Assembly: GCA_947364365.1 (NCBI GenBank) | Contig: CANASP010000005.1 | Span: forward strand, 62,001 to 126,000 | Direction: 5' to 3' | DNA: 64,000 nt | DNA from: an uncultured Alistipes sp. | GTDB lineage: Bacteria; Bacteroidota; Bacteroidia; Bacteroidales; Rikenellaceae | In this document: positions 17,925 to 61,091 of the stretch, one piece after another | Layout: each line of letters begins with the position of its first letter | Position numbering within the stretch: position 1 is the stretch's first letter | Position numbers and translations under genes: made by a program | The notes under the pieces: generated by a model | Seen by the model: the letters and a program-made list of their open reading frames with translations, nothing else | What the model was told of the DNA's origin: nothing | Databases searched by the model: none

Positions 17925-18102
17925 GTCGATTTTGTCGATCGCAGCGCCCCGAGCCGGCAGACAGCAGCCGCTCCCGACGAAGCGCCGCACGACAAGCGTG
18001 CATTGCCGCAATCCGGCTCCTCGGGAGCCGGCAGACAGCAGCCGCTCCCGGGCGGAGAGTATGTGCGGCGGGCACCTGCACGCTCTTCCGAAGAACCGGG
18101 CC

Positions 18103-18196
18103 GCAGCCGGCGGAGGGTGCATACGAGCACACGCGAGCCAGCGGCCCTCCGCGCCGGGTGGCTGCGGGCCGCCACGCTCCGGACCCGTCCGGAGCG
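18103..18196 (+). repeat. Double-hairpin intergenic element, copy at 18.1 kb
   Basis: Hairpin 1 (18103-18165): GCAGCC closes with GGCTGC, and an inner stem GCGGAGGG pairs with CCCTCCGC; the 3' side carries an unpaired GCCGGGT bulge. Hairpin 2 (18175-18196): CGCTCCGGA pairs with TCCGGAGCG. Same layout as four other copies in this window. The 313-bp spacer 17925-18237 holds this element and no gene. Confidence 0.7.
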
Positions 18197-18237
18197 CGTT
18201 CGCCAACGACACGAAAAAGCCGACGGCACGCCGCCCC

Positions 18238-40710: not shown

Positions 40711-40893
40711 TCGGGAGGTCGTGGCGGGAGGCCTTGGGGGGGGGTAGTGACGGGAGATCATGGCGGGAGATCATGGTGGGAGGCGGTGACGGGAGGTCGT
40801 GGCGGGAGATCATGGCGGGAGGAGGGAGGAGGGAGGCAGTGACGGGAGGTCGTGGCGGGAGACATGGCGGGAGACATGGCGGGAGGCGGTGAC
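40711..40893. repeat. 13-bp degenerate minisatellite upstream of gdhA
   Basis: Units of the form GGCGGGAGATCAT and GACGGGAGGTCGT repeat about ten times, interrupted by a G9 run at 40736-40744 and a GGGAGGA triplet block. The + strand is purine-rich with many GGG runs. It starts 147 bp upstream of the gdhA ATG. Confidence 0.8.
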
Positions 40894-40979
40894 TCCTTCG
40901 GGAGCCGGCGGGCCGCAGCCTCCTCCCGGCGAAGGCCCGCAACTTCGCTCTCCGCCCGTTGCCTTCCTTCGCAGGCTGC
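40891..40979 (-). repeat. Double-hairpin intergenic element, copy at 40.9 kb
   Basis: Reading leftward: GCAGCCT...AGGCTGC outer stem, inner GCGAAGG/CCTTCGC stem and CGGGAGG bulge (40915-40979), then hairpin 2 GGCTCC/GGAGTC with a CGAA loop (40891-40906). The inner stem differs from other copies by paired changes (GGAGG/CCTCC to GAAGG/CCTTC). Confidence 0.65.
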
Positions 40980-41013
40980 GACCCGAATGCGAAGACGATC
41001 CGACAGCGAAATA

Positions 41014-41103
41014 GCGGCTCGAAGAGCCGCACAGCCCGCAGCCGCCCCCGGGCGGAGGGCTGTTTTATTCGCAAGCGCTCGCAAAACAGCCTCCGCCGGC
41101 TGC
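41014..41103 (-). repeat. Double-hairpin intergenic element, copy at 41.0 kb
   Basis: Reading leftward: GCAGCC/GGCTGC outer stem, CGGAGG/CCTCCG inner stem, extended here by CTGTTTT/AAAACAG, with a CCCGGGGGC bulge (41038-41103), then hairpin 2 GCGGCTC/GAGCCGC with a TTC loop (41014-41030). Confidence 0.7.
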
Positions 41104-41160
41104 GTGCTCGCAAATTCGCTTTTATCTGCGCATCAATCCGCAACGAATTATGCCGAATAG

Positions 41161-41251
41161 TGCGGCTCTTCGAGCCGCACAGAGAGCAGCCACCCGGCGC
41201 GAAGGGCTGCATTCTCTCGCATCCGCCCGGAAAACACCCTCCGCCGGCTGC
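41161..41251 (-). repeat. Double-hairpin intergenic element, copy at 41.2 kb
   Basis: Reading leftward: GCAGCC/GGCTGC outer stem, GCGGAGGG/CCCTTCGC inner stem with one G-U, GCCGGGT bulge (41186-41251), then hairpin 2 TGCGGCTC/GAGCCGCA with a GAA loop (41161-41179). Confidence 0.7.
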
Positions 41252-41264
41252 GGACTGACAGGCC

Positions 41265-41339
41265 CTCAACGCAATCCGGCCCGACCTCCCTCCCGGATTT
41301 TCGATTTCAGAGAAGCAGATTTGCGCTTAAACGAAGCAA
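41265..41339. repeat. Long direct repeat, copy 1
   Basis: About 74 bp, nearly identical to 41382-41455. Shared content includes CAACGCAATCCGGCCCGACC near the left end and GCAGATTTGCGCTTAAACG near the right end. Confidence 0.85.
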
Positions 41340-41381
41340 AGCGCGGTGGGGATTTTCGACAGATCGCGGAGCAGGTTTCGA

Positions 41382-41455
41382 CTCAACGCAATCCGGCCCG
41401 ACCTCCCTCCCGGATTTCCGATTTTAGAGGAGCAGATTTGCGCTTAAACGAAGCG
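41382..41455. repeat. Long direct repeat, copy 2
   Basis: Second copy, 117 bp after the first, differing at only a few positions in its middle. Its right end runs straight into the hairpin at 41455. Confidence 0.85.
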
Positions 41456-41498
41456 GGACGCGGATGGGTAGTACCGAAGTACGTCCCATTCGCGCCCC
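41455..41498. repeat. 20-bp inverted repeat with CGAA loop
   Basis: GGGACGCGGATGGGTAGTAC faces GTACGTCCCATTCGCGCCCC across CGAA; 17 of 20 positions pair, one as G-U. There is no T-run on either side, so it is not a normal terminator, although it lies 40 bp beyond the yebC stop. The whole spacer 40607-41538 consists of repeats and hairpins and holds no gene. Confidence 0.75.
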
Positions 41499-60868: not shown

Positions 60869-60964
60869 TGTCAAGAAGGCGGGGCAGCCTCCGTCCGTAT
60901 GTGCGCGCATTGCGGGTCCCGGGCTCGGCCAAGGCCGGGGCCGGGCGACCCGTTTCTGTCGGGC

Positions 60965-61053
60965 GCAGCCTGCGGGGCCCGCATACCCGCAGGAGTCGCG
61001 GGCCTCCGCACCCGGGAGGCTGCGGCCCGCCACGCTTCGGAATCATCCGAAGC
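60965..61053 (+). repeat. Double-hairpin intergenic element, copy at 61.0 kb
   Basis: Hairpin 1 (60965-61023): GCAGCCT/AGGCTGC outer stem with the inner GCGGGGCCCGC/GCGGGCCTCCGC stem and an ACCCGGG bulge. Hairpin 2 (61034-61053): GCTTCGGA/TCCGAAGC. Relative to the 18.1 kb copy, hairpin 2 has a paired C-G to T-A change. Confidence 0.65.
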
Positions 61054-61091
61054 ATGCGACATCCTCCGGATACCTCCCCGCCCGGTCCGGA

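Follow-up and report, generated by a model that had tools for sequence, protein, structure and literature searches.

The repeats closest to those described here are the repetitive extragenic palindromes (REPs) and bacterial interspersed mosaic elements (BIMEs), whose GTAG- and CGTC-tagged families are treated in the consulted part of Di Nocera 2013 (PMC3733652). The excerpted account of BrickBuilt from Porphyromonas gingivalis describes its members as miniature inverted-repeat transposable elements (MITEs) with a minisatellite (PMC4596501). We analysed a 64,000-nucleotide stretch of an uncultured Alistipes sp. (assembly GCA_947364365.1, contig CANASP010000005.1, positions 62,001 to 126,000), hereafter the window, in which an original prediction made from the letters alone had described five copies of a double-hairpin element. 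We consider it probable that these copies are members of a family of interspersed, non-autonomous elements of ~100 bp that is found in Rikenellaceae and is broadly of REP/BIME type. A non-autonomous dispersed element is the best fit because the copies are many, intergenic, equal in both orientations and patchy in the genus, and because Rikenella microfusus holds near-identical ones.

The window's genome is a draft of 2,151,012 bases in 38 contigs and is 87% complete. Scoring 150 candidates in it with R1, a covariance model from an alignment of 27 copies that includes all five window copies (one as L007), we find at least 139 matches at E ≤ 0.01, or about one per 15 kb on average. All copy numbers are lower bounds, with 150 candidates scored in this genome, 150 in R. 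microfusus and 32 per genome in the genus survey. Among 40 relatives, R1 found 33 copies in one same-genus genome and 1 in another, out of 24 searched, and had no match in 16 genomes from other families. A second model, R2, was made from 44 cross-species copies. Of 151 genomes in the window's genus, 16 have R2 matches, the window's own included, as against none of 197 other genomes drawn from the order, one of the 21 listed being of the same family. The layout scan of GTDB species genomes gave at least 90 stretches, 80 of which were analysed further, with R. microfusus among the other ten. It placed the layout in at least 11 other Rikenellaceae-type metagenome-assembled genomes and in the cultured R. 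microfusus DSM 15922; a match in Dyella marensis was dropped as chance. Carriers among the stretches listed are uncultured Alistipes, uncultured Rikenella, a Rikenellaceae bacterium, Candidatus Rikenella faecigallinarum, Bacteroidia bacterium PG1894_159 and R. microfusus DSM 15922. With a window GC content of 66%, inverted repeats rich in G and C might arise by chance. However, the same sequences and layout recur throughout this genome and across many others, the 20-base core pattern (up to two mismatches) falls at 106 places in the window's genome against 26 for the reversed pattern, and none of the 197 other genomes drawn from the order has a match. These results refute chance, to which we give a negligible probability.

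In R. microfusus DSM 15922, 149 of 150 scored candidates match, near-identical copies stand at different sites, and copies also lie between prophage genes. These sequences suggest that the elements have recently multiplied there. Examining closely 320 kb chosen for dense matches, we find a degenerate palindrome, AACCGTACGGTT, beside many elements and common to neighbouring units in arrays (L285-L320). It stands, in degenerate form, on both sides of 35 of 80 copies, and the two palindromes of one copy are no closer to each other than those of different copies (likeness 9.91 versus 9.87 of 12). Ten palindrome-bounded open reading frames (ORFs) were considered as a mobiliser and rejected, as none encodes a transposase: four have no family and six belong to SRP54, radical SAM, DUF58, class II tRNA synthetase, phage portal and DUF6712. 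The intergenic spaces of carrier G012 are mosaics of repeat modules, up to ~500 bases long and common to several loci (L217-L242). A TTTGCCTCAGAATGACAAG-type repeat is among the modules, as are terminators of the hairpin-T-tract kind that are fused to the element. Because of this mosaic structure, near-identical G012 copies give no element boundaries.

The anatomy was read from 153 matches in the window's own genome, of which five among the weakest were dropped; 142 of the 148 analysed were parsed and six were not. The unit runs X, P1, P2, apical stem, loop, Y, P2 3′ arm, bulge, P1 3′ arm, Z and second hairpin. In subfamily 1, X approximates TTTTCGGnCC; P1 is GCAGCC plus one base, P2 is GCGGAGG or GCGAAGG, and Y and Z have 7 nt each. 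From X through the end of the second hairpin the median length is 99 nt (range 82-122). The second hairpin lies outside the inverted repeat and is present in 113 of 140 copies, whereas upstream control stretches have one in 27 of 140 cases and shuffled stretches in 18 of 140. It most commonly starts directly after Z (59 of 113). Subfamilies show concerted differences in P1, P2, Y, Z and this hairpin.

Covariation was checked on 247 distinct copies that passed quality filters, with R. microfusus copies left out. The cross-species scan pattern fixes most of P1 and P2, so only the free positions of pattern-found copies are informative. In both the outer (P1) and the inner (P2) stem, covariation survives the tree-aware control, and the Y:Z helix is next in rank (E 0.08 and 0.16). 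X:Z was rejected as a covarying helix: 74% of its cells pair, yet no pair is significant in the tree-aware test. In the same set G.T exceeds A.C in P1 (32:8), P2 (38:10) and X:Z (158:44), with no clear excess in Y:Z (32:24); these ratios are indicative only, as related copies are not independent. The wobble counts of P1 and P2 in the better copies are some evidence that folding takes place on the plus strand, though this does not extend across all own copies. With RNA parameters the long hairpin (X-P1-P2) exceeds the Y:Z fold in stability by ~14 kcal/mol, and with DNA parameters by 9. It is the lower in energy in 190 of 194 copies, so a bistable switch was rejected. Y:Z and P1/P2 may be used at different moments, or they may form jointly as a pseudoknot.

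Using a gene finder trained on Pfam-verified genes, we placed the 145 own copies of at least 37 bits, none of which lies inside a predicted gene. Ten have no gene called on one side; the other 135 sit in 61 convergent, 57 tandem and 17 divergent gaps. The window's gaps of at least 100 bases number 6 convergent, 13 tandem and 5 divergent. In a second genome, none of 64 copies lies in a gene: 12 stand between convergent genes and 5 between divergent ones, the tandem copies divide 15 to 23, and 9 are at the edge of a locus. Every neighbour examined is either an ordinary chromosomal gene or an ORF that has no family, and ten genes that stand between two own copies are all ordinary. The preference for convergent over divergent gaps would suit a cis-regulatory RNA or terminator family acting on the adjacent mRNA as an attenuator, a 3′-untranslated-region stabiliser or, through the second hairpin, an intrinsic terminator. 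T is also weakly enriched 3′ of that hairpin (0.37-0.45 at positions 3-6 versus a background of 0.17), and some G012 copies carry clear hairpin-T-tract terminators. However, only 13 of 113 second hairpins have at least 5 T within the next 8 nt. The tandem copies show no orientation preference, 29 running along the genes and 28 against them (15 versus 23 in the second genome), which disfavours a strand-specific regulatory RNA of the neighbours. We therefore regard a cis-regulatory family as unlikely.

The same neutrality bears on a DNA-level binding site for a nucleoid, gyrase or repair protein, kept for the chromosome's use. A role of this sort has been proposed for some BIMEs. The intergenic spacing, the neutral orientation to genes and local GC skew (no replication-strand preference was seen among own copies by the latter, a weak test) and the palindrome beside many R. 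microfusus copies would all suit it. However, a site kept for the chromosome fits poorly with carriage by only 16 of 151 genus genomes, and the wobble polarity that some counts show in P1 and P2 favours a fold of single-stranded form. A binding site is thus rather improbable. Of the three readings offered by the original prediction, the non-autonomous mobile element fits best, a regulatory RNA of the neighbours is disfavoured, and a protein-binding site is a less probable alternative.

We looked for the enzyme that would move such an element. A reverse transcriptase (RVT_1) domain occurs in 11 of 16 carriers versus 38 of 135 non-carriers (Fisher p = 0.003) among the 151 genus genomes. This association, the single-strand fold and the want of a clear target-site duplication would agree with an RNA copied by reverse transcriptase, similar to a short interspersed nuclear element. 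However, the window's genome and four other carriers gave no RVT_1 match, and none of 16 reverse transcriptase loci holds a convincing element (one match at E 0.44). The correlation with carriage may also be phylogenetic. Reverse transcriptase was thus rejected as the mobiliser, being commoner in carriers but missing from the window's genome and unlinked to elements, and we find a retrotransposed RNA very improbable. One reverse transcriptase of ~397-407 aa, 82-96% identical, is common to G007, G009, G012, G076, G122 and G131 (L259-L262, L264, L265), and profile coordinates suggest that G155 probably has it too. By a motif it looks like those of diversity-generating retroelements, a further point against the retrotransposed RNA. 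An autonomous parent beside the low-copy elements of G007, G145, G155, G002, G159 and G148 was also rejected: the 20 neighbouring proteins include no mobile gene, 14 being of ordinary families and 6 without one. The first element pattern had no match in viral contigs, and the one match there to a GGAGCC-type pattern proved on reading to be a low-complexity GC repeat.

Several observations weigh against a mobile element. A Y1 tyrosine transposase (PF01797), expected where GTAG REPs are mobilised by a REP-associated tyrosine transposase (RAYT), was not found in 41 genus genomes, four of them carriers, nor in R. microfusus. Ten of 11 other carriers were without it and one holds two fragments containing stops. 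The domain was thus not found in 15 of 16 carriers, most of the genomes searched being incomplete drafts, and Y1/RAYT was rejected as mobiliser since no carrier has an intact gene. A fixed target-site duplication was not found in the window's genome (3.96 versus 3.74 shuffled). Wider windows gave a small excess over all 30 shuffles (4.48 versus 4.27 and 5.67 versus 5.37), which may reflect tandem arrays and the local base composition. In the 142 parsed own copies, degenerate ones included, G.T and A.C do not differ (71 versus 65) when P1, P2 and Y:Z are taken together. Copies in the window's genome share no more than 92% identity with their nearest copy (median 79%), which gives no sign of recent movement there, and stems intact at such divergence could reflect selection on each copy. 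Long matches to genus relatives are ~65-81% identical and offer no comparable empty site.

If the copies do form a non-autonomous element, we propose that a trans-acting enzyme would make new copies, recognising the plus strand in its folded form, whether as single-stranded DNA or as RNA. Recognition of this kind would explain why the structure is kept across subfamilies while single copies drift. Y:Z would then serve as an alternative pairing at a recognition or copying step, and any termination or mRNA-stability effect at single sites, itself unproven, would be secondary. A narrower version is possible but doubtful: a lineage-specific non-autonomous element that needs, in order to spread, a single-stranded fold of three strands in which Z pairs with either Y or the foot strand X. 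It would have been amplified in Rikenella together with the flanking palindrome, and its mobiliser would be of an enzyme class new to REP-type repeats and distinct from both Y1 transposases and phage functions.

The window copies are listed in Table 1. R1 matches all five within a few bases of where they had been predicted (E 3.5e-12 to 3.5e-5), a recovery that is by construction, since all five are in its alignment. Independent support comes from the genome-wide matches, the excess of the core pattern over its reversal and the lack of any match in 16 genomes of other families. Neither outcome named beforehand as refuting the prediction was observed, since further copies exist and the covariation of the outer and inner stems holds with more copies aligned. 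The predicted second hairpin is present 3′ of all five matches, and the intergenic position of every copy was confirmed. The two stems of the predicted layout also stand, but Y:Z, a third covarying helix, had been missed. The outer GCAGCC/GGCTGC stem is 7 bp long, its extra pair joining the base after GCAGCC to the last base assigned to the bulge. Two supposed constants gave way: a CCGGG or CGGG in every bulge, the rest of which varies (GCCGGG, CGCCGG, CGCCCCC, CCGCCG), and a conserved loop GAG, which is missing from some subfamilies.

Table 1. Element copies in the window. R1 columns give the model's match.
Feature	Position	Strand	Description	R1 match	Score and E
Copy 1	40891..40986	-	Subfamily 2: GCAGCCTGCGAAGG...GGCCTTCGC-bulge-AGGCTGCGGCCCGCC and second hairpin (hairpin seen in fold)	40907-40983	49.2 bits, 5.6e-7
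Copy 2	41013..41107	-	Subfamily 3 type; Y ACAGCCC, Z GGGCTGT; second hairpin GCGGCTCTTCGAGCCGC	41030-41107	77.3 bits, 3.5e-12
Copy 3	41161..41255	-	Subfamily 4 type; Z starts TCTCT, unpaired with Y	41178-41255	70.7 bits, 5.8e-11
Copy 4	18096..18198	+	Subfamily 1; Y GCGGCCC, Z GGGCCGC; second hairpin CGCTCCGG..CCGGAGCG	18099-18173	70.1 bits, 7.5e-11
Copy 5	60958..61056	+	Subfamily 2 type; Y GCGGGCC, Z GGCCCGC; second hairpin CACGCTTCGG..CCGAAGCATG	60961-61031	39.5 bits, 3.5e-5
Probable truncated sixth copy (by eye)	~18013-18059	-	Has the 3′ arms of inner and outer stem with the bulge between them, and a second hairpin; adjoins copy 4 back to back	no match at E ≤ 1

The genes beside these copies are adenylate kinase and a DHODH-like gene (an assignment below the Pfam cut-off), glutamate dehydrogenase and yebC, and an M48 peptidase and a GH2 gene. 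Near glutamate dehydrogenase, a G-rich minisatellite adjoins the three-copy cluster (window 40712-40893; 13.5 copies of the 13-base unit CGGGAGGTCGTGG, or alternatively a 52-base period). Between the cluster and yebC lies an 87-base direct repeat of a different family (41265-41351 and 41382-41468, 90% identical).

Discussion of REP-type repeats usually goes hand in hand with that of Y1 transposases. The present family is dense, belongs to a major gut lineage and has a conserved fold of greater complexity; as no Y1 enzyme was found, such repeats either have another mobiliser or can spread with none. The type strain R. microfusus DSM 15922, with at least 149 matches, many near-identical, makes bench testing possible, and the patchy distribution in the genus permits a carrier versus non-carrier search for the enzyme. 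Repeat arrays of this kind could mislead assembly and RNA-motif discovery.

We found no earlier description of this repeat family in the open-licence literature. Rfam 15 at gathering score has no match at the elements in the window, and none at elements in 20 loci at E ≤ 1; a single sub-threshold match, to a Burkholderia sRNA, scored 15.9 bits versus 48. Away from the element, L045 2422-2496 (minus strand) has a sub-threshold suhB/mmgR match (32.2 bits, cut-off 41, E 0.0084). Integron attC sites carry RYYYAAC and GTTRRRY boxes, a pair that none of the 142 copies has near its ends. IS200/IS605-derived (PATE-like) ends are one-strand hairpins without a clear target-site duplication, both as in this element, which differs in that no intact Y1 transposase was found and no fixed cleavage tetranucleotide was noticed, none being tested for. 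The fixed-length target-site duplication of DDE-transposon MITEs was not seen in the window's genome, and the flanking palindromes of R. microfusus give no sign of one. As to the terminal inverted repeats of such MITEs, the second hairpin of the window's genome falls outside the inverted repeat, and the degenerate palindrome of R. microfusus flanks 35 of 80 copies on both sides. Palindromic Bacteroidetes candidates among human-microbiome structured RNAs are predicted as terminators in the part of that report consulted (PMC8040213). BrickBuilt is likewise a small non-autonomous repeat of Bacteroidales, as its excerpted description has it (PMC4596501), but we see no minisatellite inside our element, whose second hairpin lies beyond the inverted repeat.

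The CGTC REPs without a dedicated transposase, which the consulted part of the review reports in Bacteroidetes too (PMC3733652), are also dispersed palindromes with no known mobiliser. Those families would carry an unpaired GTAG or CGTC tag at the hairpin foot. Our element differs, as CGTC is present in just 17 of the 142 stretches upstream of copies and in 20 of the 142 downstream; GTAG is present in 3 and 5 of 142. Neither tag marks the family, and it further departs from REP/BIME in its bulged hairpin plus second hairpin, the added Y:Z helix, the want of an intact Y1 gene in 16 carriers and its length of ~100 nt, against 20-40 nt in the same source (PMC3733652). It nevertheless resembles the REPs and BIMEs described there in being high-copy, intergenic and palindromic, in occupying mostly unidirectional and convergent gaps, and in forming subfamilies with complementary stem changes (PMC3733652). 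In the broad sense the family is REP-like, with many intergenic palindromic copies that lie mostly outside divergent promoter regions.
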